A DNA stretch of 64,000 nt from Streptomyces sp. NBC_01304 (GTDB taxonomy: Bacteria > Actinomycetota > Actinomycetes > Streptomycetales > Streptomycetaceae), in contig NZ_CP109055.1 of NCBI RefSeq assembly GCF_035975855.1, forward strand, positions 4,836,001-4,900,000. The letters are read 5' to 3'. The translations under genes and the position numbers were made by a program. The notes beneath the pieces are model-generated. The model ran no database searches, was not told the origin of the DNA, and saw nothing but the letters and a program-made list of their open reading frames with translations. The stretch's first letter is position 1. Each line of letters opens with the position of its first letter. Positions 1,699 to 60,219 of this stretch are shown here, in pieces.

Positions 1699-2087
1699 CG
1701 AGCGGCGAACGGCTGGTCCGTACGCACGATTTCGCGGCCCAGCGGCATCAACGACACCGGGATCAGCTTGAAGTTGGCGATGCCCAGCGGGATGCCGATG
1801 ATCGTGACGCACTGCAGGACACCCGTGACGATGTGGGCGAGCGCGAGCCACCAGCCCGCGAGGATCAGCCACAGGACGTTGCCGACGCAGGAGGGTGCGC
1901 CGGCGTCCCTGCGCTCAACTGTCGTATAGCCGAAGGGCCACAGGGCGTACACGCCGATGCGGAACGCCGCTATCCCGAAGGGGATGCCGATGATCGTGAT
2001 GCAGAGGATCACGCCCGCGAGCAGGTAGCCCAGGAACAGCCAGAAGCCGCTCAGGACGAGCCATATGACGTTGAGAATTGTCTTCAC
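1695..2087 (-). CDS. yccF: YccF-domain inner membrane protein
   Basis: A small 130-residue membrane protein made of two tandem YccF (DUF307) repeats. Residues 1-53 and about 68-118 share the pattern NVxWLxLxGxW followed by CxTIIGIPxGIAxF. Each half holds two hydrophobic helices, so about four TM segments are expected. No biochemical function is established for the family. It overlaps the upstream htpX by 4 bp (ATGA), so the two are translationally coupled. It also overlaps the stop of the convergent GNAT gene. Confidence 0.85.
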
Positions 2088-2944
2088 TGCTGGCGACCTG
2101 CCATCTGCTCGAGTCGGGCGATCCGGTCCGCCATCGGCGGATGCGTCGAGAACATCTTGGACATGCCCTGCCCCGGGCGGAAGGGGTTCGCGATCATCAT
2201 GTGGCTGGCCGCCTCGATCTTCGGCTCCGGCGGCAGCGGCAACTGCTTGGTGCCCGCGTCGAGCTTGCGCAGCGCGCTGGCGAGGGCGAGCGGGTCGCCG
2301 GTGAGCTGGGCGCCGGACGCGTCGGCCTCGTACTCCCTGGAGCGGCTGATCGCGAGGCGGATCACGGAGGCCGCCATCGGGCCCAGGATCATGATCAGCA
2401 GCATGCCGAAGATGCCGGGGCCTTCACGGTTGTTGTTGCCGCTCGGGATGAGCCAGGCGAAGTTGACCAGGAACATGATCACTGAGGCGAGGGCGCCGGC
2501 GACCGAGGAGATCAGGATGTCCCGGTTGTAGACATGGCTGAGCTCGTGGCCGATGACGCCGCGCAGTTCGCGCTCGTCCAGGATGCGCAGGATGCCTTCC
2601 GTGCAGCAGACCGCGGCGTTGCGCGGATTGCGGCCCGTGGCGAAGGCGTTCGGCGCCTCGGTGGGCGAGATGTAGAGGCGGGGCATGGGCTGGCGGGCCT
2701 GGGTGGAGAGTTCGCGGACCATGCGGTAGAGCTCGGGAGCCTCGAATTCGCTCACCGGGCGGGCGCGCATGGCCTTCAGGGCGAGCTTGTCGCTGTTCCA
2801 GTACGCATACGCGTTGGTGGCGAGGGCCACGAGCAGCGCGATGATCAGGCCGCCACGCCCGAAGAAGCTGCCGATGACAAGGATGAGCGCGGACAGTCCC
2901 CCGAGGAGCAGGGCGGTCTTCAACCCGTTGTTTCGGCCGTGCAC
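2084..2944 (-). CDS. htpX: M48-family zinc metalloprotease HtpX
   Basis: Membrane-bound zinc endopeptidase of the HtpX family, which degrades misfolded membrane proteins in heat/envelope stress. At 286 residues it has the usual length. TM helices lie at about residues 9-28 and 32-49, and a further hydrophobic pair at about 150-195. The zinc motif HELSH is at 133-137 (His133, Glu134, His137), and the third ligand is Glu206 in EYEADASG. The start is GTG, preceded by AGGAGGG at 6-7 nt. It heads an htpX-yccF pair downstream of nuoN2. The 265-bp gap to nuoN2 holds only a weak CCACT/AGTGG inverted repeat (3003-3016) and GC-rich sequence. Confidence 0.93.
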
Positions 2945-3209: not shown

Positions 3210-4778
3210 TCAGAAGAGGGCGGTGGCGGAGAAGCGCAGCACCAGTTGCGGGGCGCCGGACAGGGCGATGGCGAGCACGGCGGTCAGGGCGATGGCCGCG
3301 GTGAGGGGGCGGGGCACGGGCGCGGCGTGCTGGGGCTGTGCGCCTTCGGGGGCGGCCTCGTGGGTGTCCTCGGCGCCGCGGAAGAGCAGCGCGGTCCACC
3401 GCAGGTAGTAATAGAGCGCGATCACGACGTTGAGGGCCATGACGACCGCGAGCCAGCCGAGGCCCGCGTCGACAGCCGCCGAGAAGACCGTGACCTTCGC
3501 GAAGAGGCCGATGATGCCCGGCGGCAGGCCGGCCAGGCAGAGCAGGAAGAAGGCCAGGGCGAGGGCCCCGAAGGGGCTGGTGGCGTACAGGCCGCGGTAG
3601 TCGCTGAGGCGGTTCTGCGGGCGGCTGCGGGCGACCAGGGCGGCCACGGCGAAGGCGCCGAGGTTCACCGCCGCGTACATCAGGGCGTACGCGACCGTGG
3701 AGCCGATGGCCTTCTCGGCGTCGGCACCGCTGTCGGCGTACGCGGCCGAGGCGATCGGCACCAGGAGGTAGCCGGCCTGGCCGACTGAGGACCAGGCGAG
3801 CAGGCGGACCGCGCTGTACGCGCGCGTGGCGCTCTGTCGCAGGGCGGCGACATTGCCGGCGGTCATGGTGAGGGCGGCGAGTACGGCGAGCGCGGGGCCC
3901 CAGACATCTGCGTACGACGGGAAGGCGACAACGGTCACCAGGATGAGGCCGGTGAAACCGACCGCCTTGCCGACGACGGAGAGGTAGGCGGCGACCGGCA
4001 GGGGCGCGCCGATGTAGGTGTCCGGCACCCAGAAGTGGAAGGGGACGGCGGCCGTCTTGAAGGCGAAGCCGACGAGGGTGAGGGCGACTCCGGCGTGCAT
4101 GAGAGTCGTGAGTTCGCCGTCCACGGGCGCGTGGGCGATCTCGGTGAGGTGCAGGCTGCCGGTCGACGCGTAGACGAAGCTGACGCCCAGGAGGGTCACG
4201 GCGGTCGCGGTGACCGAGGACAGGAAGAACTTCAGGGCCGCTTCGGAGGAGCGCCGGTCGCCGCGCTTGAGGCCGACGAGTGCGAAGGCCGGCAGGGAGG
4301 CGACCTCCAGGGCGACGACGAGGGTGGCCAGGTCGCGGGAGGCCGGGAGCAGGGCGGCGCCCGCGGCGGAGGACAGCAGCAGGAACCAGAACTCCCCTTC
4401 GGGGAGTTGGGTGTTGTCCCGGCCGCTCCTGCTGTCCTTCAAGGGGCTGATCGACAGCAGGGCGGTGAGCAGCGCTCCCGCGAGGACCAGGAACTGGATG
4501 ACCAGGGTGAAGCGGTCGGCGGTGTAGCTGCAGACGCCCTTGTCACCGGTCAGGCAGAAGGTGGCGCGGTCGCCGTCGAGGAGCGGCAGGAGTGCGAGCG
4601 AGGCAGCGGCGAGGCCCGCCACCGAAATCCAGGCGAGCAGCGTCTTGTTGGCCTCGCGGACGAACAGGTCGGCCACCAGGACGATCAGCGCGACGACCGC
4701 GGCGATGGTGGGCGGCGCGATCGCGAGCCAGTCGACGGACTGGACGAGACTTCCGAGGCTTTCGGCGGCGGTGGTCAT
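3210..4778 (-). CDS. nuoN2: NADH-quinone oxidoreductase subunit N, second cluster
   Basis: Antiporter-like proton-channel subunit of the complex I membrane arm, 522 residues and very hydrophobic (about 14 TM helices). The conserved antiporter-module elements are visible: ALEVASLPAFALVGL (TM5 glutamate) and FAFKTAAVPFHFWVPDTY with the TM7 lysine. The 3' part encodes FFLLCLAGLPPGIIGLFAK, typical of NuoN. It is the last gene of the reduced operon. Its ATG overlaps the nuoM2 stop by 4 bp and follows an AGGAGG. No strong terminator is evident before htpX. Confidence 0.93.
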   Translation of the reverse strand: MTTAAESLGSLVQSVDWLAIAPPTIAAVVALIVLVADLFVREANKTLLAWISVAGLAAASLALLPLLDGDRATFCLTGDKGVCSYTADRFTLVIQFLVLAGALLTALLSISPLKDSRSGRDNTQLPEGEFWFLLLSSAAGAALLPASRDLATLVVALEVASLPAFALVGLKRGDRRSSEAALKFFLSSVTATAVTLLGVSFVYASTGSLHLTEIAHAPVDGELTTLMHAGVALTLVGFAFKTAAVPFHFWVPDTYIGAPLPVAAYLSVVGKAVGFTGLILVTVVAFPSYADVWGPALAVLAALTMTAGNVAALRQSATRAYSAVRLLAWSSVGQAGYLLVPIASAAYADSGADAEKAIGSTVAYALMYAAVNLGAFAVAALVARSRPQNRLSDYRGLYATSPFGALALAFFLLCLAGLPPGIIGLFAKVTVFSAAVDAGLGWLAVVMALNVVIALYYYLRWTALLFRGAEDTHEAAPEGAQPQHAAPVPRPLTAAIALTAVLAIALSGAPQLVLRFSATALF

Positions 4779-6361
4779 GCCTTGCCTCCTGCGAGGAGCT
4801 GCTGCACGGCCGGGTCGGTGAGGCCGAGCAGCAGCGCGGGCCAGAGTCCGGCGAGGACGGTGAGGGCGACGAGGGGGGTCCAGGCGGCGAACTCGTAGCT
4901 CTGGACGTCGAGCTGCTGTGGTTGCGGCCCTGTGTCCTCGGGGGGATTCCCGCCCATGCAGACACGGCGTACGACGATGAGCATGTACGCGGCCGTGAGC
5001 AGCGTGCCGAAGGCCGCAATCGCCATGAAGGTCAGGAAGGCGGGGCGGCTCAGGCCCTCTGCGGGCTTGAACGCGCCGAACAGGGCGAGCATCTCGCCCC
5101 AGAATCCGGCGAGTCCGGGCAGTCCGAGCGAGGCGACGGCGCCGAAGGCGAGCAGGCCGCCGAAGCGGGGGGCCTTGCCGTACAGGGCGTGGCCGGTCCG
5201 GCCGGCGAGGGCGTCCAGGTCGGTGGAGCCCGTACGGTCCTTGAGGGCGCCGACCAGGAAGAAGAGCAGGCCGGTGATGAGGCCGTGGGCGATGTTGGCG
5301 AACAGCGCGCCGTTCACGCCGGTGGGGGTCATCGTGGCGATGCCGAGGAGCACGAAGCCCATGTGGCCGACCGAGGAGTACGCGATGAGGCGCTTGAGGT
5401 CGCCCTTCGCGCCCTGACGGGCCAGGGACAGGCAGGCGAGCGATCCGTAGATGATGCCGACCACGGCGAAGGCAGCGAGGTAGGGCGCGAACTCCCGCAT
5501 TCCGTCAGGGGTGATCGGGAGCAGGATGCGGACGAACCCGTACGTGCCCATCTTGAGCATGACACCGGCGAGCAGGACCGAGCCGACGGTGGGCGCGGCG
5601 GTGTGGGCGTCCGGGAGCCAGCTGTGCAGCGGCCACATCGGGGTCTTGACCGCGAGGCCGATCCCGATCGCCAGAACGGCGATGACCTGCACGGATGTGG
5701 TCAGCCCACGGCCGTTGTCAGTGGCGAGTGCCAGCATGTCGAATGTGCCGGACTTCACGCCGATGAGGAGGAGGCCCAGCAGCATCACGACGGAGCCGAG
5801 CAGGGTGAAGAGGATGAACTTCCAGGCGGCTTGAGTGCGTTGGGCACCGCCCCACCGCACGATGAGGAAGTACATCGGGATGAGCACCATCTCGAACGCC
5901 AGGAAGAACAGCAGCAGATCGAGGACGGCGAAGGTCGCGAGGGTGCCGGACTCGAGGACGAGCACCAGCGCCACAAATGCCTTGGGAGACGGGCCCGCAG
6001 GCATTTTGAAGTAGCTGTAGAGCGCGCAGAGGAACGTCAGGAGCGCGGTCAGTACGAGGAGGGGGAGCGAGATGCCGTCGATGCCGAGGTGGATGCGCAC
6101 GTCGAGCGCCGGGATCCAGCTGATGTCGGTCGTGGCCTGCATACGCGCCGGCTCGTCGTGATCGAAGCCGGCCGCGAGGGCGAGCGCGGCCAGGAGCACG
6201 GCGCCTGTGACGGTGACGCCGTGCCGCAGGACCGCCTGGTCCGGTGACTTGCCCCTGAGTCCGGGCGGGGCCGGGAGCAGGGCGGCGGCCGCGCCGAGGA
6301 GCGGGGCTGCCACGACGAAGGCGAGGAGGAACTGCATGACGGTGTCGTTGATATCGATCAC
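4775..6361 (-). CDS. nuoM2: NADH-quinone oxidoreductase subunit M, second cluster
   Basis: Antiporter-like membrane subunit, 528 residues, about 14 TM helices. FEMVLIPMYFLIVRWGG carries the TM5 glutamate of the proton channel. KTPMWPLHSWLPDAHTAAPT has the key TM7 lysine and broken helix. The start is GTG, 3 nt after the nuoL2 stop, and the stop overlaps nuoN2. The core residues needed for proton translocation appear intact, so the reduced cluster should still encode a working pump arm. Confidence 0.93.
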   Translation of the reverse strand: MIDINDTVMQFLLAFVVAAPLLGAAAALLPAPPGLRGKSPDQAVLRHGVTVTGAVLLAALALAAGFDHDEPARMQATTDISWIPALDVRIHLGIDGISLPLLVLTALLTFLCALYSYFKMPAGPSPKAFVALVLVLESGTLATFAVLDLLLFFLAFEMVLIPMYFLIVRWGGAQRTQAAWKFILFTLLGSVVMLLGLLLIGVKSGTFDMLALATDNGRGLTTSVQVIAVLAIGIGLAVKTPMWPLHSWLPDAHTAAPTVGSVLLAGVMLKMGTYGFVRILLPITPDGMREFAPYLAAFAVVGIIYGSLACLSLARQGAKGDLKRLIAYSSVGHMGFVLLGIATMTPTGVNGALFANIAHGLITGLLFFLVGALKDRTGSTDLDALAGRTGHALYGKAPRFGGLLAFGAVASLGLPGLAGFWGEMLALFGAFKPAEGLSRPAFLTFMAIAAFGTLLTAAYMLIVVRRVCMGGNPPEDTGPQPQQLDVQSYEFAAWTPLVALTVLAGLWPALLLGLTDPAVQQLLAGGKA

Positions 6362-6364
6362 GGC

Positions 6365-8290
6365 TCAGGCTCCCGCTGCGACGAGGACGGCGGCGACGGC
6401 CAGGACTACGGAGCCGGCGAGCAGCGCGCCCAGATAGGTCTGCACATTGCCGGTCTGGGCACGGCGCACGGCTGCGCCCAGCCAGCGGGGAGCGGTACCC
6501 GCGCCGCGTACATACGTTTCGACAACTTCGCGATCGAGGAAACGAATCAGGGTGGCCATGGACTCTATAGGTCGTACGAACAACGCGGCGTAGACCGCGT
6601 CGAGATGGAATCCGGTGGCCGCGTGCCGGTGCAGCGGGCCGAGGAGGAGGCGGCCGGGGTCGGCGGAATCCGGGGCGGGGGCGGCTGCCGGTGAGGGGGC
6701 GGCGGCCAGGGCGGTGGAGTGCCGCCAGGCCGCGTAGGTGACGAGACCGCCCACCAGGGCGAGACCGGTACCGAGGACGGAAGTGGTGAGGGTCGGGGTG
6801 AGCGAGTGGCCGTCGAACCAGTCGGGCAGCCGGCCGACGGCCAGACCGAAGACGAGGGAGGGGACGGCCAGTACCCACAGCACCGCGTTCATGGCGACGG
6901 GCTGCTTGCCGTGGTCGGGGGCTTCGGCGCCACTCCCCCGGAACGCGAGCAGCCAGAGACGGGTGGCGTAGGCCGCGGTGAGCAGGGCCGTGACCAGGCC
7001 GGCGACGAGGACGATCCAGCCCGCCGCTCCGGGCACGGACTCGGCGTGGCCGGTGGCCACGTGCTCGGCTGCGCCCAGGACGGCTTCCTTGGAGAAGAAG
7101 CCGCTGAAGGGCGGGATCGCGGCGAGCGCGAGGAGCGCCACGGTCATCGTCCAGTAGGCGTCGGGGATGCGGCTGCGCAGGTCCTTCATCCGGGACATCG
7201 CAGCAAGGGAGTTGGTGCCCGCCGCGTGGATGATCACGCCGGCGGCGAGGAAGAGGAGCGCCTTGAAGGCGCCGTGCGACAGGAGGTGGAAGACGGCGGC
7301 CCCGCGGTCGCCGACGGCCAGTGCGCCGGTCATGTAGCCGAGTTGGCCGATGGTCGAGTACGCGAGGACCCGCTTGATGTCGTCCTGGGCGAGGGCGGCG
7401 AGGGCGGAGCCCGCCATCGTGACGGCTGCCATCACGGCAAGGACGACGAGCGCCGCGGCGGAGGCGGCGAAGACCGGAAGGAGCCGGGCCACGAAGTAGA
7501 CACCGGCCGCGACCATCGTCGCGGCGTGGATCAGCGCGGAGACGGGGGTGGGACCCGCCATCGCGTCGGGCAGCCAGGTGTGCAGCGGGAACTGCGCCGA
7601 CTTGCCCGCCACGCCCGCGAGGAGCAGCAGCGCGATCAGGGTCGGATGGTCGAGGCCGCCTGCCGCGACCGTGTCGAGGACCTTGGTGATGCGGAAGGAC
7701 CCGGCATCCGCGGCGAGCGCGAACAGGCCGATCAGGAAGGGGACATCGCCGAGCTTGGTGACCAGGAAGGCCTTCAGCGAGGCGGCGCGGGCCTCTGGCG
7801 TCTCCCAGTAGTGGCCGACCAGGAAGTACGAGCAGATGCCCATGATTTCCCAGCCGACGAGCAGCACCATCAGGTCGCCGGAGTAGACGACGAGCAGCAT
7901 CGCGGAGGTGAACAGCGAGACCAGGGCCGCATACGAGGGATAGCGCGGGTCGTCGCGCAGATAGCCCGTCGAGTAGATCTGCACACACGACGCGACCAGA
8001 CCGACCAGGACGGCGACCAGGACCGCGAAGCCGTCGAGGTGCAGGGCGAGTTCGATGGGGACCGAGCCGGTCGGGGTGAGCTCGGTGGCCGCGTCGAGGG
8101 GCTTCGTGCCGTTGCCGGCGCCGCCGCCCTGGCGGACGGCGATCAGCACGGCGAGCACCGTCGATGTCAGGACGGGCAGTACGGCGAGAGGACGGACGAA
8201 GCCGGGCGCCTTGCGGCCGAGGAGCAGTCCGGCGGCCGCGCCCAGGAACGGAAGGAGGGGGACGAGGACGGCGAGGGTCGTGGTGGTCAC
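6365..8290 (-). CDS. nuoL2: NADH-quinone oxidoreductase subunit L, second cluster
   Basis: Largest antiporter-like subunit, 641 residues, expected to have 16 TM helices and the long lateral helix [18 protein letters not shown] carries the TM5 glutamate. [15 protein letters not shown] followed by [15 protein letters not shown] is the TM7/TM8 signature. The C-terminal amphipathic region and final helix (about residues 600-641, [19 protein letters not shown]) are present, so it is not a truncated Mrp-type antiporter. The GTG start overlaps the nuoK2 stop by 4 bp. Confidence 0.93.
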
Positions 8291-8703
8291 GCGGTGGCCT
8301 CGGCCTTCTGCGCCGCGCCGGCAGCGTCGGGGGCGTCTTGCGGTCCGTCGTCGGAACCGTCATCAGAGCCGTCATCGGGACCGTCGTCGGGGCCGGAGGG
8401 CTCGGCGGTGTCGCGGAGGCGGTCGATGTCGGAGGTGCCGCGGTTGCGGTACACCATCAGCACGATCGCGAGGCCGATGCCGATCTCGGCGGCGGCGATG
8501 GCGATGGTGAAGAGGGTGAGGGCCTGGCCCGAGTGGAGCTTGTCGCGGAGCCACACGTCGAAGGCGACCAGGTTGAGGTTGACGGCGTTGAGCATCAGCT
8601 CGACGGACATCAGGACCAGGATCGCGTTGCGGCGGGCCAGGACGCCGTAGAGGCCGGTGCAGAAGAGCAGGGCGGCCAGCACGGCGGGGTAGGCGAGGTG
8701 CAT
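8287..8703 (-). CDS. nuoK2: NADH-quinone oxidoreductase subunit K with acidic tail, second cluster
   Basis: Small three-helix membrane-arm subunit related to MnhC/MrpC. Residues 1-100 match the normal size, with the two conserved membrane glutamates in [11 protein letters not shown] and [13 protein letters not shown]. Residues about 101-138 form an extra tail with [17 protein letters not shown], so the protein is 138 residues against about 100 in most bacteria and 99 for the other copy here. The ATG start (8701-8703) overlaps the nuoJ2 stop by 1 nt. The tail is encoded by about 12-bp repeats at 8340-8400. Confidence 0.92.
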
Positions 8704-9410
8704 CAGCGCTGCTCCTTGTCGCCGGGGGCGGCCGGGTGGGCGCCGAGCGTGTCCGAGGCGGCGCCGGGGCCGCCCGGGCGGGTGCCGTTCCCGGCCTGGC
8801 GGGTGCCGTTCCCGGTGGCGTCGGTGGCCTTGCCCTTGCGGGAGAGGACGATCGCGCCGACGAGGGCGGCGAGGAGGAGGACGGAGAGGGCCTCGAAGGG
8901 CAGCACCCAGTGCTGGAACAGGATCGAGCCGGTGACCTCGGTGGTGCCCTGAGGCGTGTCCAGCTCGATCCACTGGGTGCGGAAAGCGTCGACGACCACC
9001 CACACCAGGGCGGCGGCCGAGGCGATCGCCACCGCGAGCGCGGCCCAGCGGTTGCCCGAATCGGCGTCCGGGGAGCGGCCGATGGGGGCCTTGGTGAGCA
9101 TCAGCCCGAACAGCAGGAGGACGACCACGGAACCGACGTAGATCAGGACTTGGACCCAGGCGATGAACTCGGCCGTGAGCAGGAGGTATTCGACGGCGAT
9201 GCCGCCGAGGGCGACGACCAGCCAGAGGGCGGCGTGCACCAGCTGCTTGGTCGTGACGCTGACGACGGCCGCGCCGAACGTGGCGATGCCGACGAGCAGG
9301 AAGGCGATCTCGACGCCGGTCGGCGAGAGGAAGCCCTGCGGTGCGGTGGCCGCGAGCCCGTGCGGGGCGGCGGCTGCGAGGCCCTGCGGGGCGGCTGCGA
9401 GGAGGGTCAT
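8703..9410 (-). CDS. nuoJ2: NADH-quinone oxidoreductase subunit J, second cluster
   Basis: Five-helix membrane-arm subunit, 235 residues. The core runs from about residue 30 ([22 protein letters not shown]) to about 190. [20 protein letters not shown] is the TM3 pi-bulge region typical of NuoJ. The first 27 residues contain three near-identical blocks of the form A-P-(Q/H)-G-L-A-A. The last 45 are a Gly/Pro/Arg-rich tail with two NGTR(Q/P)(A/G) units. The ATG overlaps the nuoI2 stop by 4 bp. The N-terminal repeat could be an artefact if a later start is used, but no other start has better coupling. Confidence 0.9.
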
Positions 9411-9973
9411 GCCTCACCCTCCTGCTGCGGCTCGGCCTGCTGGGCGGCCTGTTCGGCGGCGAGCTTCTCCGCGGCCTTGCGGGCGGCGGAGATCTCCTTG
9501 GGCTCCTCGGCGCCGGGGTCCAGGGCGGGTGGGGCCGGGACGGTCCACATCCACTCGCGGAGCTTGTCGCGTTCGTGGGTGAGTTCGTGGATGTCCGTCT
9601 CCGCGTACTCGAATTCCGGTGACCAGAACAGCGCGTCGAAAGGACAGACCTCGATGCAGATACCGCAGTACATGCAGAGCGAGAAGTCGATGGCGAAGCG
9701 GTCGAGGACGTTGCGGCTGCGCTCGCGGCCGCCGGGGGCTGCCGCCGGGACCGTCTCCTTGTGGGAGTCGATGTAGATGCACCAGTCGGGGCACTCGCGG
9801 GCGCACAGCATGCAGACCGTGCAGTTCTCCTCGAACAGGCCGATGACGCCTCGGGAGCGGGGCGGGAGTTCGGGCTGAACGTCGGGGTACTGCGCGGTGA
9901 CGGTCTTCTTCGTCATCGTGCGGAGGGTGACGGCAAGGCCCTTGGCCAGGCCGGAGCCGGGGAACGGAGCCAT
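9407..9973 (-). CDS. nuoI2: NADH-quinone oxidoreductase subunit I (2x[4Fe-4S]), second cluster
   Basis: Ferredoxin-like peripheral-arm subunit that carries clusters N6a and N6b. Both eight-cysteine motifs are complete: [12 protein letters not shown] at about residues 51-62 and [12 protein letters not shown] at about 98-109. The protein is 188 residues, with an Ala/Glu/Gln-rich C-terminal extension (about 155-188). Start ATG at 9971-9973 overlaps the nuoH2 TAA by 1 nt. The open frame continues far upstream through nuoH2 and nuoC2 in another phase, but only this start gives a NuoI-like N-terminus ([17 protein letters not shown]). Confidence 0.93.
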
Positions 9974-10941
9974 TAGTTGATCGCCACCTTCACGATTCCG
10001 GTGAGCGCGATCTGCGCGAGGGCGAGCGGGACGAGGGTGGTCCAGGCGAGCTTCTGGAGCTGGTCCTCGCGCAGGCGGGGGTAGCTCACGCGCAGCCAGA
10101 TGACGACGAAGGCGAGGACCGCGGTCTTCAGCAGGGTCCAGACCCAGCCGAGACCGTCCGCACCCCACGGGCCGTGCCAGCCGCCGAGGAAGAGGACGGT
10201 GGTCAGACCGCACAGGACGACGATCCCGGCGTACTCGGCGAGGAGGAAGAGGGCGAAGCGGAGGCCGGTGTACTCCGTGTACGCGCCGAAGATGATCTCG
10301 GAGTCGGCGACGGGCATGTCGAAGGGAGGACGCTGGAGTTCGGCGAGGCCGGCCACGAAGAAGACGAGGGCGCCCACGATCTGCCAGGGCAGCCACCACC
10401 ACTCGAAGGCGTTGACGATGCCGGGCAGCGAGACCGTGCCGGCCGCCATCGCCACGGAGGCGGCGGCGAGCAGCATCGGGAGTTCGTAGGCGAGGAGTTG
10501 CGCGGCGGTGCGCAGGCCGCCGAGGAGGGAGAACTTGTTGGCCGAGGCCCAGCCCGCCATGAGCGAGCCGAGTACGCCGACGCCCATGACGGCGAGGACG
10601 AAGAAGATGCCCGCGTCCAAGACCTGGCCGACCGCGCCCTCTTCCGGGCCGATCGGGATGGCGACCAGGACCAGGAGGTAGGGCAGGAGGGCGACGGCGG
10701 GCGCGAGTTGGAAGATCTTCCGGTCCGCGTTGGTGGGGACGATGTCTTCCTTCTGGGCGAACTTGACGCCGTCGGCGACGAGTTGGGCCCAGCCGTGGAA
10801 GCCGCCCGCGTACATCGGGCCGAGGCGGCCCTGCATGTGGGCCATCACCTTGTGCTCGGTCTGGCCGATGACCAGCGGGAGGGTCAGGAAGACGACGAAG
10901 ACGACGAGCAGTCGCAGGGCGACGTCCAGTACGTCGGTCAT
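9973..10941 (-). CDS. nuoH2: NADH-quinone oxidoreductase subunit H, second cluster
   Basis: Membrane-anchor subunit that forms part of the quinone chamber, 322 residues and 8 predicted helices. Family landmarks are [15 protein letters not shown] near residue 35, [19 protein letters not shown] around 200, and [15 protein letters not shown]. The acidic loop normally read as P-E-(A/S)-E-x-(E/D)-L-V is here A-D-S-E-I-I-F. It is therefore less acidic than in the full-operon copy at 52814-54181. No long C-terminal extension is present. Start ATG overlaps the nuoC2 stop by 4 bp. Confidence 0.93.
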
Positions 10942-12410
10942 GCGCGGTCGCCTCCGGCGGGGGTGTCGGGGCCGGCCTGGGTCGGGCCGTCTTGATCGGG
11001 GCCGACTTGGGTTGGGCCGTCCTGATCGGGGCCGGCTTGGTCGGGGTGGCTTTCCTGCTTGTGCTCGGGTGCGGGCTCGGCTGCCGGATCGGGTTGGGCC
11101 TTGGGCTCGGCCTTGGGCTCGGCCTTGGGCTCGGATTCCGGCTGGGCCTGGGCTGCCGAGTCGGGCTCTGGCTTGGCTTCCGGTCCCGGCTCGGCCTCCG
11201 GCCCCGGCTCGGCCTCGGGCTTGGGCTTGGCCTCCGGATCCGGCTTGGCCTCGCTCTCCGGCTGAGCCTTGGCATCCGGCGCTTGCTCCGGCTCCGCCTT
11301 GGAGTCCGGCGCTTGCTCCCCCTTGACCCCGTCCTCGCCGAAGGCCGGGCGGGGGTTGTGCCAGGGTGCGTCCGTGCTGCGGGCCGGGGCGGCGCCGGGA
11401 GCGGCCCCCTCGGCCGGCGGCGTCGAGGGCGCGGCCTGGGATGCCGACCCCTGCGCCGCGCTGCGGGAGCGCCGGGCGGGCGGCGCGGTCTCCGCCGGGA
11501 CAGCGCCGTCGCTCGCGTCTCCGGAGCTCGGCTCAGCGGACGCAGCTGCCTCCGCCTGACTCGCCGAGCCTTCACTCGCGGACCGGGACCGACGCACAGG
11601 AGCAGCCGCTCCCTCAGCCGCACCAGCCTGGCTCGCCGAACCCTCACTCACCGACCGGGACCGACGCACCGGAGCAGACGCAGGTGGTGCCTCGCCCTGG
11701 CCGGCCGGGCTGGACGGAGGCGTGCCCTCCGCCTGGCTCGCCGAACCCTCGCCCACCGAGCGGGTCCTGCGGGCGGGGCGCTCTCCGGCGGCTCCGGCTC
11801 CGGCGGCGCGGGCTCCGCGGGCGGGGCGGGTCGGGGCCGGTGGGAGTTGGCCCTTCATGGGGCCCCAGTCGTTCGGGTCCGGGACGCCCGGGGGCAGCAT
11901 CTGGCGGCGCTTGGGGCCGCCGTGGTCGGACTCGCCCGGCTCCTTGGCGCCGGGCCAGGCCTTGGCGACGCGGGCCGCGAGGACGAAGTCCTTGCGCAGG
12001 GGGTGGCCCTCGAAGCCCTCCGGGAGGAGGAGCGGGTCGAGGCCGGGGTGGTCCGTGAAGTCGACGCCGAACATTTCGTGCGTCTCGCGCTCGTGCCAGG
12101 CGGCACCGGCGTAGACGAGCACGGCAGAAGCCAGTACGGGTTCCGCGTGCGGGACGGTCGTGCGGACCAGGAGGCGACGTACGGGAGAAAGGGCGACCAC
12201 ATGCGCGGCGACGCGGAAGCCCGTGCCCGGCTCGTCGACCGCGCTCAGCCAGTCGAAATAGGTGCAGCCCAACGCGTCGCGAGCGGTCGTCAGCGAAGTC
12301 GTCCACGCAGCAGGCGGGACGTCGACCGTGAGGACGTCGTAGGACTCCTCGGCCGTTGCCTCCGCGCCGAAGAGGGCGGTCACGTCCTCGGGGAGCCAGC
12401 CCACGGTCAC
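10938..12410 (-). CDS. nuoC2: NADH-quinone oxidoreductase subunit C with ~300-residue disordered tail, second cluster
   Basis: The 30-kDa-subunit domain (Complex1_30kDa) occupies residues about 10-150, with the signature [19 protein letters not shown] at 106-124 and HPLRKDF at 136-142. Residues 190-490 are low complexity. They contain four copies of RR(S/T)RSxxxGSASQA (214-227, 249-262, 273-286, 313-326), a Lys/Pro/Glu/Ala-rich stretch (370-452) and PDQDGPTQ repeats (460-482). Total length 490 residues, against about 170-250 for a free NuoC. GTG start at 12408-12410 overlaps the nuoB2 stop. The tail stays in frame to the nuoH2 ATGA overlap, so it is part of the gene. No NuoD-like sequence occurs in it. 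Confidence 0.9.
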
Positions 12411-13015
12411 TGGTCGGCCCCCTTCGGGACCGGCGGGGCGACCAGGTCGCTCTGCAGGGCGGCGGCCGAGGGGCGTCCGGACACTCCGTACCGCTCCCCC
12501 AGCGACTCCCGAGCGATCTTCTCCTGGAGCTTGAGGATGCCCTGGAGCAGCGCCTCGGGGCGGGGCGGGCAGCCGGGGACGTAGACGTCGACCGGGATGA
12601 TCTGGTCGACGCCCTTGGTGACGGAGTACGAATCCCAGTAGGGGCCGCCGCAGTTGGAGCAGGCGCCGAAGGAGATGACGTACTTCGGCTCGGGCATCTG
12701 CTCGTACAGGCGCTTCACGGCCGGGGCCATCTTGTCCGTGACCGTGCCGGAGACCACCATCAGGTCCGCCTGGCGCGGGCCCGGCGCGAAGGGGATGACG
12801 CCGAGCCGGATGAAGTCGTGGCGGGCCATGGACGCGGCGATGAACTCGATGGCGCAGCAGGCCAGTCCGAAGTTGAAGACCCAGAGCGAGTAGCGGCGGC
12901 CCCAGTTGAGGACCACCTTCATCGGTTCGGGGGCCAGGCGCGCCAGCGGGCCGAGGCGCTTCGGCTCCGGGAGGTCCACCGGGGTGGAGTCCACGGGGGC
13001 AGGGGTCACGTCCAT
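12407..13015 (-). CDS. nuoB2: NADH-quinone oxidoreductase subunit B (N2 cluster), second cluster
   Basis: Peripheral-arm subunit that binds the terminal cluster N2 next to the quinone site, 202 residues. The tandem cysteines ([11 protein letters not shown]), the third ligand region ([13 protein letters not shown]) and [11 protein letters not shown] are all present, so N2 should assemble. The [12 protein letters not shown] version differs from [11 protein letters not shown] of the full-operon copy. Residues 1-45 and about 180-202 are variable extensions. ATG at 13013-13015 lies 10 nt inside the end of nuoA2. Confidence 0.93.
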
Positions 13016-13386
13016 GTGAGGACGCCCTTCTTGTATGCGTACAGCAGGCCGATCGCGAGGAAGCCGAGGAAGATGAACATCTCGACGAGCGTCGCGGCGC
13101 CGAATTGCGCGTTGGCGAAGACCGTGGCCCACGGGAAAAGGAAGATGGAGTCGACGGCGAAGATGACGTACAGGAACGCGTAGACGTAGTAGCGGACCTG
13201 GGTATGGGCCCAGCCCTCGCCGACGGGGTCGACTCCGCACTCGTAGGTGAGCATTTTCTCGGGAGTCGGGACCACCGGGCGCAACAGCCGGTTCGCGCCG
13301 AATGCCACGGCGACGAAGAGCACGCCGACAACGGCGAGTACCCCGACGACCGAGTAGCTCTGGAAATAGCTCGCCGAGACCGGCAC
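13006..13386 (-). CDS. nuoA2: NADH-quinone oxidoreductase subunit A, second cluster
   Basis: Three-helix membrane subunit, 126 residues, first gene of the reduced operon. The loop motif [13 protein letters not shown] (47-59) is conserved. The second-helix motif normally reading F-D-x-E is here F-A-V-D (76-79), followed by SIFLFPW. The conserved aspartate is therefore missing. The start is assigned to GTG (13384-13386, PVSASYFQS after it) because a GAGCGAGGGG stretch precedes it. The longer in-frame ATG at 13458 would add an unlikely Arg-rich leader. The 196-bp gap to the divergent kinase must hold its promoter, but I see no clear -10/-35. Confidence 0.92.
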
Positions 13387-13550
13387 TTCGCCCCTCGCTC
13401 CCTGATCTCGCCCTGATCGTGTTCGCCGCGGTCGCCCTGTTCGACGATCTGTACGCACGGGAGTCTAGGGCCTGCTAAAGCGGGGGTAAGCAGCCCGTCA
13501 TGGAGAGGGTGGGGTTTTCCCCAGTTCATCCTGGCGGCGCACCTCATGGC

Positions 13551-13570
13551 GCCGGGCCGCGCGGCCCGGC
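13551..13570. promoter_or_regulatory. Perfect 20-bp palindrome in nuoA2/histidine-kinase divergent region
   Basis: GCCGGGCCGC is followed directly by its reverse complement GCGGCCCGGC. It ends 12 nt before the ATG of the first histidine kinase and lies in the intergenic region shared with nuoA2. It could be an operator for a dimeric regulator, for instance the response regulator encoded downstream, or an RNA hairpin masking the start. GC-rich palindromes arise by chance more easily in this genome. Confidence 0.35.
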
Positions 13571-13582
13571 AGGCTGTGCAGC

Positions 13583-14764
13583 ATGAACACAGGGATCACC
13601 GCCGACAGCGGCACCGACCGGCCGCCACCCGTGCGTTTCGCATTGGGGAAACACACGTGGAAGGAGATCGCCCATCTCCTGCTGAATCTGCCGGTCGCCG
13701 TGCTCGGATTCATTTACGCGGTGACCGTGGTGTGCACCGGCGGGGCGCTGTCCGTGACGGTGATCGGCCTGCCGCTGCTCGCCCTCGGGCTGCTCGGCGC
13801 GCGCCGGCTCGGCCGGATGGAGCGGGCCAGGGCGCGGGCGCTGCTCGGCATACGGATCGATGAGCCCAGCCCGCTGCCGCGGGGCAAGGACGAGGGCTTC
13901 TTCGGCCGGCTGTGGTCGAGCCTGAAGGACCCGGTGGGCTGGCGCGGTCTGCTGTACGACTTCATCCGGCTGCCCTGGGGCATCGTGACGTTCACGGTCA
14001 CGCTGGCCTCGCTGTTCGTGCTGTGGCCGGTACTGCCGTACATCGCGCGGGGGTTGACCAACGTGGATCGCGCGATGGTACGTGGCCTCCTTTCGCCCTC
14101 CGACGAGTTGGAGCGGCGCATCGCCGAGCTGGAGTCGGACCGTGGCGTCGTCGTCGACACCGCGGCGGCCGACCTGCGCCGCATCGAGCGCGATCTGCAC
14201 GACGGGGCCCAGGCCCGCCTGGTGAACCTCGCGATGGGGCTCGGTCTGGCCAAGGAGAAGCTCCTGGAGGGCCAGTCCGACGACATGGTCGCCGCGATGG
14301 TCGACGAGGCGCACGGCGAGGTGAAGCTGGCGCTGCAGGAGCTGCGTGACCTGGCCCGCGGCATCCACCCCGCGGTGCTGACCGACCGCGGCCTGGACGC
14401 CGCGCTGTCGTCGGTGGCCTCGCGCTGCACGGTGCCGGTCAAGGTGACCGTGGAGATGCCGGCCCGCCCTGCGGCGGCCATCGAGGGCATCGCCTACTTC
14501 ACGGTCTCCGAGCTGCTGCAGAACATCAGCAAGCACAGCGGGGCGCGCAACGCCACGGTCGATGTGTGGCGCTCGGGCGACCGGCTGCTCATCCAGGTCG
14601 GCGACGACGGGCAGGGCGGTGCCAGCCTGTCCGGCGGCACGGGGATGGCGGGGCTCGCGGAGCGGCTCGACGCGGTGGACGGGATCTTCGGCGTGGATTC
14701 GCCGGTGGGCGGGCCCACGGTGGTCACGGCGGAGCTGCCTTGGCGGGACCGTACGGAGGGCTGA
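13583..14764 (+). CDS. Sensor histidine kinase (membrane Sensor domain, HisKA_3, HATPase)
   Basis: NarL/DesK-type sensor kinase, 393 residues. Residues about 25-170 form a four-helix membrane Sensor domain (hydrophobic stretches near 30-52, 56-75, 122-150 and 155-165). The dimerisation/phosphoacceptor HisKA_3 domain has ERDLHDGAQARLVNLAMG with phosphorylated His206. The ATPase domain shows N-box SELLQNISKHSGA, G1 VGDDGQGGA and G2 GTGMAGLAERLDAVDG. It is followed by a close paralogue and then by a NarL-type regulator on the same strand. No strong Shine-Dalgarno precedes the ATG. The signal sensed is unknown. Confidence 0.9.
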   Translation: MNTGITADSGTDRPPPVRFALGKHTWKEIAHLLLNLPVAVLGFIYAVTVVCTGGALSVTVIGLPLLALGLLGARRLGRMERARARALLGIRIDEPSPLPRGKDEGFFGRLWSSLKDPVGWRGLLYDFIRLPWGIVTFTVTLASLFVLWPVLPYIARGLTNVDRAMVRGLLSPSDELERRIAELESDRGVVVDTAAADLRRIERDLHDGAQARLVNLAMGLGLAKEKLLEGQSDDMVAAMVDEAHGEVKLALQELRDLARGIHPAVLTDRGLDAALSSVASRCTVPVKVTVEMPARPAAAIEGIAYFTVSELLQNISKHSGARNATVDVWRSGDRLLIQVGDDGQGGASLSGGTGMAGLAERLDAVDGIFGVDSPVGGPTVVTAELPWRDRTEG

Positions 14765-58022: not shown

Positions 58023-58870
58023 CACTCCCCCTCCTCGGCAGTCGGTCCGGCGGGGTGGGCCGGGTCGGAGGCCGAGGTCTGCTGCGGTGCGTCGTGCGAG
58101 CTGAGGTGCTCGGCGCCGGGTTCGGGCTGCCCGTCCCGGGCGGACTCCCCGCGCGGGTGCACCACACGGGGCACGGCCGCCTCGCCCTTGGCCAGCTTCA
58201 GGCCGATCAGGGAGGCGGGGCCCGCGCCGCCGGAGGCCTCGACGGCGCCCGCGCGCTCGTCCGGGAAGCCGGCCAGGATGCGGGCGGTCTCCTTGTAGGT
58301 GCAGATCGGCGCCCCGCGCGTGGGCTCGACGGGCCGCCCGGCGATCAGGTCGTCGACGAGCTGCTTCGCGGAGTCGGGCGTCTGGTTGTCGAAGAACTCC
58401 CAGTTCACCATCACCACGGGCGCGAAGTCGCAGGCCGCGTTGCACTCGATGTGCTCGAGGGTGACCTTGCCGTCCCCGGTGGTCTCGTTGTTGCCGACCC
58501 CGAGGTGCGACTTCAGCTCGTCGAAGATGGCGTCGCCGCCCATGACGGCGCACAACGTGTTGGTGCAGACGCCGACTTGGTAGTCCCCGGAGGGCTTCCT
58601 TCGGTACATCGTGTAGAAGGTGGCGACCGCGTTGACCTCGGCGGTGGTCAGACCGAGCACGTCCGCGCAGAACTGCTGGCCGGTGCGGGTGACATGGCCC
58701 TCCTCGGACTGCACCAGGTGCAGCAGCGGCAGCAGCGCCGAGCGGGAGTCCGGGTAGCGGGCGATCACCTCCTTCGCATCCGCTTCGAGCCTGGCGCGTA
58801 CGTCGGCCGGGTAGTCGGGCGCGGGCAGCTGGGGCATCCCCAGGCTGACGCCCTCTTGTGAAGTGGTCAC
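58022..58870 (-). CDS. nuoE: NADH-quinone oxidoreductase subunit E
   Basis: Thioredoxin-fold [2Fe-2S] (N1a) subunit, 282 residues. Ligands are in [12 protein letters not shown] and [12 protein letters not shown]. The core ends near residue 190. The C-terminal about 90 residues ([20 protein letters not shown]) are disordered, usual in streptomycetes. GTG 58868-58870 forms a GTGA overlap with nuoD. VSLGMPQL further in is an alternative start. Confidence 0.95.
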
Positions 58871-60219
58871 CGGTCGACGCCTCCCATCACGGGGTCGATG
58901 GACGCGACGGCGACGATGACGTCGGCGACCTGGCCGCCCTCGCACATCGCCGCCATGGCCTGCAGATTGGTGAAGGACGGGTCACGGAAGTGGACCCGGT
59001 AGGGGCGGGTGCCCCCGTCGGACACGACGTGCACGCCGAGCTCGCCCTTGGGCGACTCGACGGCCGTGTACGCCTGACCCGGCGGGACCCGGAAGCCCTC
59101 GGTCACCAGCTTGAAGTGGTGGATCAGGGCCTCCATCGAGGTGCCCATGATGTTCTTGATGTGGTCGAGCGAGTTGCCCAACCCGTCCGGGCCGAGCGCG
59201 AGTTGCGCGGGCCAGGCGATCTTCTTGTCGGCGACCATGACCGGGTCGTGCTCGGAGGAGCCGCCGACGGGCTTGAGGCGGTCCAGGCACTGCTCGATGA
59301 TCCGCAGCGACTGGCGCATCTCCTCGAGACGGATGAGGAAGCGGCCGTACGAGTCGCAGGTGTCGGCGGTCGGGATGTCGAAGTCGTACGTCTCGTAGCC
59401 GCAGTACGGGTCGGTCTTGCGCAGGTCGTGCGGCAGGCCGGCCGAGCGCAGGATCGGGCCGGTGGCTCCGAGGGCCATGCAGCCGGTCAGGTCGAGGTAA
59501 CCGACGTCCTGCATGCGGGCCTTGAAGATGGGGTTCCCGGTGGCGAGCTTGTCGTACTCGGGAAGGTTCTTCTTCATGGTCTTCACGAACTCGCGCAGCT
59601 GGTCCAGCGCTCCGGGCGGCAGGTCCTGGGCGAGTCCGCCGGGCCGGATGTACGCGTGGTTCATGCGCAGGCCGGTGATCAACTCGTAGATGTCGAGAAT
59701 GAGTTCACGATCACGGAAGCCGTAGATCATGATCGTCGTCGCGCCGAGCTCCATGCCCCCGGTGGCGATGCAGACCAGGTGCGAGGAGATCCGGTTCAGC
59801 TCCATCAGCAGGACGCGGATGACGCTGGCCCGGTCCGGGATCTGGTCCTCGATGCCGAGCAGCTTCTCGACGCCCAGGCAGTACGCCGTCTCGTTGAAGA
59901 ACGGCGTCAGGTAGTCCATGCGCGTGACGAAGGTCGTGCCCTGCGTCCAGGTCCGGTACTCGGTGTTCTTCTCGATGCCGGTGTGCAGATAGCCGATGCC
60001 GCAGCGGGCCTCGGTCACCGTCTCGCCGTCGATCTCGAGGATCAGCCGGAGCACGCCGTGCGTGGACGGGTGCTGCGGCCCCATGTTGACGATGATGCGC
60101 TCGTCGTCGGACTTGGCCGCGGACTGGACGACCTCGTCCCAGTCGCCGCCGGTGACCGTATATACGGTGCCCTCTGTAGTGGCGCGCGGCGTTGCATGGG
60201 GTGCGTGGGGAGTGGTCAC
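58867..60219 (-). CDS. nuoD: NADH-quinone oxidoreductase subunit D
   Basis: 49-kDa subunit that lines the quinone-reduction site, 450 residues. [22 protein letters not shown] near residue 40 contains the quinone-contact histidine loop. [11 protein letters not shown] carries the catalytic-site tyrosine region. [29 protein letters not shown] and [11 protein letters not shown] complete the hydrogenase-like fold. This is the only nuoD in the window, which matters because the second cluster has none. GTG start overlaps the nuoC stop. Confidence 0.96.

Follow-up and report, generated by a model that had tools for sequence, protein, structure and literature searches.

The Streptomyces nuo2 cluster and its distant nuoD2: a probable complex I-like enzyme without the NADH module, and a candidate Q-module that may have outlived its pump in other actinobacteria

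The nuo2 cluster and an unlinked nuoD gene

The DNA analyzed here (the window) is a 64,000-nucleotide stretch of Streptomyces sp. NBC_01304 (contig NZ_CP109055.1, positions 4,836,001 to 4,900,000) that carries, apart from a standard complex I (nuo) operon, a second set of complex I genes, nuo2. Ten genes, identified by Pfam and NCBIfam profiles, lie on the minus strand in the order A-B-C-H-I-J-K-L-M-N, and neighboring genes overlap or are at most 3 nucleotides apart (Table 1). Coordinates and profiles thus bear out an earlier note on this DNA, which had described a ten-gene cluster that lacks D, E, F, and G. The cluster is too tightly packed to hold any of these four genes; a second E, F, or G elsewhere in the genome was not searched for. 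Lacking E, F, and G, nuo2 does not encode a 14-subunit complex I. The earlier note also judged NuoB, NuoI, and the pump subunits to look functional, and our alignments agree: all four N2 cysteines are kept in NuoB2 and both 4Fe-4S motifs in NuoI2, while alignment with solved chains shows that the membrane Lys/Glu positions of NuoL2, NuoM2, and NuoN2 and the acidic loop of NuoH2, regarded as important in the literature, are retained.

The headline of the earlier note, a complex I operon that lacks NuoD, does not hold. A PF00346 search of the whole genome, the check that the note had proposed, returned two NuoD proteins, NuoD1 in the window and NuoD2, encoded 224 kb from the nuo2 cluster and 39% identical to NuoD1. 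The note's suggestion of a distant NuoD is therefore the part that stands, by virtue of this second match and its co-occurrence with nuo2 (see below), and eleven subunits are accounted for. Three bacterial NuoD models score NuoD2 higher than the FpoD or NdhH models do. Two other candidates for the missing subunit were rejected. The stretch between B and H consists of NuoC and a low-complexity tail and hides no degenerate NuoD, and a [NiFe] large subunit in place of D is ruled out by the lack of any PF00374 match in the genome; as the NuoD2 sequence is also without CxxC, the system is not a group 4 [NiFe] hydrogenase.

That nuoD2 is unlinked in Streptomyces is already published. According to PMC3765725, Streptomyces species have nuoA2, B2, D2, and H2 to N2, of which only nuoD2 stands apart from the others, and the genes appear to be expressed as a single operon; the account in PMC8388888 is much the same.

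Table 1. Genes of the nuo2 system and neighboring or comparison genes (window positions unless stated otherwise)
Gene	Position	Strand	Length (amino acids)	Basis and remarks
nuoA2	13006..13386	-	126	PF00507 (Pfam only)
nuoB2	12407..13015	-	202	PF01058; N2 ligands by alignment; Trp in GGPYWDSY loop
nuoC2	10938..12410	-	490	PF00329 NuoC domain at residues 29-147, then long Pro/Glu/Ala/Lys tail
nuoH2	9973..10941	-	322	PF00146; aligned with solved NuoH
nuoI2	9407..9973	-	188	Fer4 families; two 4Fe-4S motifs by alignment
nuoJ2	8703..9410	-	235	PF00499
nuoK2	8287..8703	-	138	PF00420
nuoL2	6365..8290	-	641	PF00361 and PF00662; aligned with cyanobacterial NdhF
nuoM2	4775..6361	-	528	PF00361; TIGR01972 above cut-off; aligned with solved NuoM
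nuoN2	3210..4778	-	522	PF00361; aligned with cyanobacterial NdhB
nuoD2	G000:C1:5073232-5074416 (L004:9733-10917)	-		Outside the window; PF00346
nuoD1	58867..60219	-		PF00346; standard operon, not part of nuo2, for comparison only
HtpX	2084-2944			Window's genome, beside nuo2
YajQ	just before the window (L289)			Window's genome

The tail of NuoC2 (window 10938-11800) is of low complexity, with many Pro, Glu, Ala, and Lys residues. The length of C2 is 468 to 627 amino acids in four other loci of the genus (L162 to L165) and at most 289 in the remaining 36 loci. In one locus (L159, genome G153), about 5 kb separates B2 from C2 and another 5 kb or so separates H2 from I2.

NuoD2 belongs with nuo2

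NuoD2 accompanies nuo2 across the genus and the class; the counts at both levels take no account of shared ancestry. Among 61 genomes of the genus, NuoD2 (scored at ≥85% identity) is present in 60, NuoB2 in 59, and both in 58, and the exceptions (one genome with NuoB2 only, two with NuoD2 only) are all fragmented assemblies. In each of the 13 single-contig assemblies among these genomes, the distance between the two genes is between 183 kb and 3.7 Mb. In a class sample of 246 genomes (E-value cut-offs of ≤1e-75 for NuoD2, ≤1e-26 for NuoI2, and ≤1e-110 for NuoM2), NuoD2 and NuoI2 were each found in 97 genomes, 90 of which have both; NuoM2 was found in 57 genomes, 55 of them with NuoD2 and the other two only 72% and 80% complete. 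One genus genome, G055, has three NuoD matches, among them G055:C3:575862 and 7403205.

In other classes of the phylum, a NuoD2-type gene lies directly before H in a C-D-H-I arrangement in 13 of the 19 fetched loci, with B in 10 and A in 6 of the 13 (the flanks are short) and with the same Arg/Trp signature (see below). In four of the remaining six, NuoD2 stands beside a methyltransferase gene, and neither context occurs within 1.5 kb in the last two. None of the 40 loci fetched for nuo2 or B-C-I has D inside the cluster. The simplest history is that nuoD left what had been an operon of 11 genes. The earlier note had named a NuoD paralog elsewhere in the genome, with matching phylogeny, as the result that would overturn its claim, and the trees do agree: those of NuoD2 and of B-C-I correlate with a Mantel r of 0.86 over 39 rows, a value reached in 0 of 2,000 permutations. 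Moreover, genome G186 (100% complete, 60 contigs) has the nuo2 cluster (L158) and NuoD2 (L121), with one NuoB and one NuoH, while genome-wide searches found no NuoD1, no second NuoB, and no second NuoH in it.

A methyltransferase gene beside nuoD2 and a changed quinone site

In the window's genome, the 3' end of nuoD2 is overlapped by a convergent gene whose PF02636 match (E value, 1.9e-19; 70.6 bits against a cut-off of 23.3) places it in the MidA/NDUFAF7 family of methyltransferases. The methyltransferase gene is on the same fetched stretch as NuoD2 in 35 of 41 loci; of the other six, three are on short contigs (L088, L091, and L094), one has the gene beyond the fetched stretch (genome G122), and two show none (L105 and L123). 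In the class sample, 86 genomes have NuoD2 and PF02636, 11 NuoD2 alone, 5 PF02636 alone, and 144 neither (Fisher p, 4e-47, uncorrected for ancestry); outside the genus, the corresponding numbers are 64, 11, 5, and 144. Three of the 11 genomes scored as NuoD2 alone (G079, G186, and G248) do carry a homolog of the methyltransferase by tblastn, and four of the five with PF02636 alone are 72 to 80% complete.

NDUFAF7 methylates Arg85 of NDUFS2 (PMC3829151, PMC3750175, PMC12455994, PMC9006661), and the equivalent residue is dimethylated in Paracoccus, not in E. coli (PMC3750175). Arg69 of NuoD2 (in HRGAEK) is present in all 182 NuoD2-type loci, and Thr occupies this position in 21 of 21 NuoD1 sequences. 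At least nine genomes are counted repeatedly among the 182 loci (G083, G089, G092, G101, G106, G126, G137, G153, and G299), and the NuoD2 of L107, absent from the open reading frame extraction, was read from its search match. By analogy with NDUFAF7, the methyltransferase probably modifies Arg69 of NuoD2.

The quinone-site Tyr of NuoD holds the quinone head group. At this position (Tyr87 of Thermus Nqo4), NuoD2 has Trp92, and every one of the 182 NuoD2-type loci has Trp. All 21 NuoD1 sequences have Tyr, as do the four solved NuoD homologs aligned. The position of Thermus Nqo4 His38 is kept in 181 of the 182 loci, and His174 of NuoD2 in all of them. In NuoD2, His43 is present and the Tyr is replaced by Trp. 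NuoB2 has the loop GGPYWDSY where NuoB1 has GGMFNNY. The acceptor site appears to be altered. Because of the Trp, we class the NuoD2 enzyme as a variant and make no claim that its quinone chemistry is canonical.

A reduced form without the membrane arm

Loci around 40 NuoB2-type genes fall into two main forms. In 24 of them (12 family codes), only B2-C2-I2 is present; of the other 16, 14 have H2, I2, and J2 to M2 or more, one is decaying (L153), and one is cut by a contig end (L160). At the strict NuoM2 cut-off, 42 class genomes have NuoD2 and no NuoM2, and the loci of 29 of these were read, leaving 13 unread. The 29 comprise 24 reduced loci, one decaying (G089), one cut by a contig end (G076), and three full ones (G106, G186, and G236), so that the strict cut-off misses real NuoM2 genes. 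All 24 reduced genomes have NuoD2 elsewhere in the genome. Genome-wide search found a single NuoH in 23 of them (38 to 45% identity, the standard copy), none in G118 (78% complete), and a second NuoH in none of the 24; J to N were searched for genome-wide there only as NuoM2 at the strict cut-off. Assembly gaps as the origin of the reduced form are ruled out by the genome-wide NuoH search and by single-contig genomes (G089 and G269).

In the reduced loci, all four cysteines of B2 and the two motifs of I2 are retained in every sequence that was covered there; the extracted B2 of L128 does not include the N-terminal region. NuoI2 is truncated at its N terminus: matches begin at query residues 19 to 42 in 23 of 24 reduced genomes (G105 is below the cut-off), against residues 1 to 8 in the window and in the ten full class genomes read. 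The ratio of nonsynonymous to synonymous substitution rates (dN/dS) is 0.11 to 0.50 in 15 gene comparisons from four within-genus pairs (a sixteenth was saturated), which points to purifying selection. HtpX and/or YajQ is found beside 24 of 24 reduced clusters and HtpX beside 13 of 14 full ones; the two forms therefore occupy the same chromosomal place. No partner enzyme was found next to B-C-I, where the recurring neighbors identified are YajQ, L33, dehydratases, MurB, an aminotransferase, NusG, HtpX, and, as judged by eye, a SecE-like protein.

Genome G089 shows decay of the membrane arm under way: on a single contig, B2, C2, and I2 are intact, A2 and H2 are internally shortened, J to N are unmatched, and HtpX is next to the cluster. 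In a 39-row tree rooted on the operonic relatives, the 20 reduced rows group into a single clade nested among the full ones (SH-aLRT support, 99; NuoD2 alone, 99; B-C-I alone, 90), and G089 stands apart from it among full rows. A correct tree would imply two or more losses of the arm. That the 20 reduced rows share one origin is not secure, because several are long-branched and long-branch joins were flagged. Families f14 and f28 hold both reduced and full states. In a scan of named genomes, from which 80 loci of 594 stretches (mostly Streptomyces) were kept, the reduced genome G137 matches Motilibacter deserti (L167, G529) by identical coordinates. Taken as a whole, the reduced form appears to be a Q-module that has survived the loss of its pump.

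Proposed function and alternative explanations

We consider it very probable that the ten genes of nuo2 and the unlinked nuoD2 together specify the eleven subunits of a complex I-like enzyme that pumps protons and lacks E, F, and G. On this view, nuoD2 separated from the operon early in the history of the actinobacteria and is now located beside a MidA/NDUFAF7-type methyltransferase gene. What was observed directly is the gene content, the location of NuoD2, the conservation, the co-occurrence, the D-containing operon of relatives, and the loss of the arm in other lineages. In such an enzyme, a soluble donor that is not NADH, for example ferredoxin or a different reduced carrier, would probably feed the two NuoI2 clusters, from which electrons would pass to N2 in NuoB2 and leave in the NuoB2/NuoD2 cavity, with Trp in place of the quinone-binding Tyr; A, H, and J to N would convert this transfer into ion pumping. 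Methylation of Arg69 would probably enable NuoD2 to assemble with NuoB2, as NDUFAF7 suggests.

Several observations weigh against this interpretation. The scores of NuoD2 fall short of the curated NCBIfam thresholds for the NuoD models TIGR01962 and NF008974 (and exceed that for NF004739). Seven class genomes have NuoI2 without NuoD2 at the cut-off, including three that are 93 to 98% complete (G064, G195, and G215), whose NuoD2 may lie below the cut-off, and seven have NuoD2 without NuoI2. One genome with PF02636 alone, G127, is 94% complete. The methyltransferase matches NDUFAF7 weakly (PDB, E value of 5.6e-4; bacterial DUF185, 1.9e-6), and because of this a common substrate is something we infer only. 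Finally, NuoB2 is 47% identical to NuoB1, and sequence alone is compatible with mixed complexes.

Borrowing of NuoD1 from the standard operon, which the earlier note considered, has in its favor that both operons share a genome and NuoD1 is intact. With a dedicated NuoD2 that co-occurs with nuo2, it is very improbable, and it is not needed in G186, which has nuo2 and NuoD2 and no NuoD1 that we could find. Furthermore, where the membrane arm was lost it is NuoD2, not NuoD1, that diverged: identity to the window's protein is 41 to 69% in 24 reduced and 71 to 79% in ten full genomes for NuoD2, compared with 68 to 77% in 23 reduced and 70 to 75% in nine full genomes for NuoD1. A new kind of pump without any NuoD, also raised in the note, could appeal to the absence of D from all 40 fetched clusters, but its probability is close to nil given NuoD2 in the genome and inside the same operon in other classes. 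It is also unlikely that the nuo2 products are alternative parts swapped into the standard complex I with no separate enzyme, as proposed for NuoL2/M2 in PMC3765725. A cyanobacterial precedent and antisense RNA from nuoM2 to nuoL2 speak for it. The full set of eleven with its own Q-module speaks against it, and G186 keeps the nuo2 set where no standard NuoB, NuoD, or NuoH was found.

For the reduced lineages, two readings compete. One, which we hold tentatively and at somewhat less than even chances, is a free-standing actinobacterial Q-module (NuoB2-NuoC2-NuoI2-NuoD2) with full iron-sulfur wiring, an arginine-methyltransferase partner, and no membrane arm, which would use a non-quinone acceptor in the Trp cavity, the same module still driving a proton pump in the window's lineage. 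The other, rather less likely and still a serious competitor, is that these four proteins dock on the standard membrane arm as an alternative Q-module and form no soluble enzyme. Docking is favored by the single, standard NuoH kept in 23 of 24 reduced genomes, by the NuoD1 kept in 23 as well, by the conserved Q-module ligands, and by some Chloroflexi that encode nuoBCDI apart from the membrane arm they serve (PMC7117926); among J to N, the genome-wide search covered NuoM2 at the strict cut-off. Against docking, reduced sequences are on longer branches, and in 23 of 24 reduced genomes NuoI2 is without the N-terminal stretch that contacts the membrane arm in known structures.

Comparison with known systems

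The Desulfitobacterium system (PMC11238625) likewise has A, B, C, D, and H to N without E, F, and G; nuo2 differs in its displaced nuoD beside a methyltransferase gene, its Trp at the quinone Tyr, and its arm-less relatives. Cyanobacterial NDH-1 and archaeal Fpo also lack the NADH module, whereas NuoD2 is closer by score to bacterial NuoD models than to their counterparts. The published Streptomyces nuo2 (SCO4599-SCO4608 plus nuoD2; PMC3765725, PMC8388888, PMC9739823) agrees with ours in the cluster, the unlinked nuoD2, the apparent single operon, and the divergent AbrC regulators, but NuoC2, the methyltransferase, Arg69/Trp92, and the reduced form are not named in the portions available to us. 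The Chloroflexi nuoBCDI complex I (PMC7117926) resembles the reduced form in that Q-module genes lie away from membrane-arm genes; the genes for its membrane arm, which include an additional NuoM, are located elsewhere, whereas no second NuoH was found in the reduced actinobacteria. In common with NDUFAF7/MidA, the nuo2 neighbor is a PF02636 methyltransferase paired with a NuoD that has the target arginine, yet here it is a distant homolog and its gene adjoins nuoD2.

Searches of the open literature turned up no account of a pairing between bacterial NuoD and NDUFAF7 genes, of a free-standing Q-module, or (by a narrow query) of Trp at the quinone Tyr position of NuoD. The four-protein Q-module lineages without a second NuoH, G089 midway, and the full-enzyme relatives offer natural experiments on the electron-carrying half of complex I alone. 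The fixed Tyr-to-Trp change bears on which acceptor the NuoD2 cavity serves, and the methyltransferase pairing opens bacterial NuoD arginine methylation to direct testing in Streptomyces.

Gene neighborhoods of nuo2 and nuoD2

A frame for a sensor histidine kinase (PF13796, HisKA_3) lies at window 13490-14764 on the plus strand and points away from nuoA2; the nuo2 cluster of S. coelicolor and the AbrC regulators there have a divergent arrangement (PMC9739823). Around nuoD2, L087 to L126 have nuoD2 and the methyltransferase gene in a recurring neighborhood resembling folate, pantothenate, and FtsH genes (names by eye), and in L116 (genome G087), NuoL/NuoM-like antiporter genes directly adjoin nuoD2. 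Genes for bPH_2 (bacterial PH domain) proteins, at L004:10950-11504 and nearby in the window's genome, are found near nuoD2 in 18 of 41 loci; we know of no link between bPH_2 genes and complex I.

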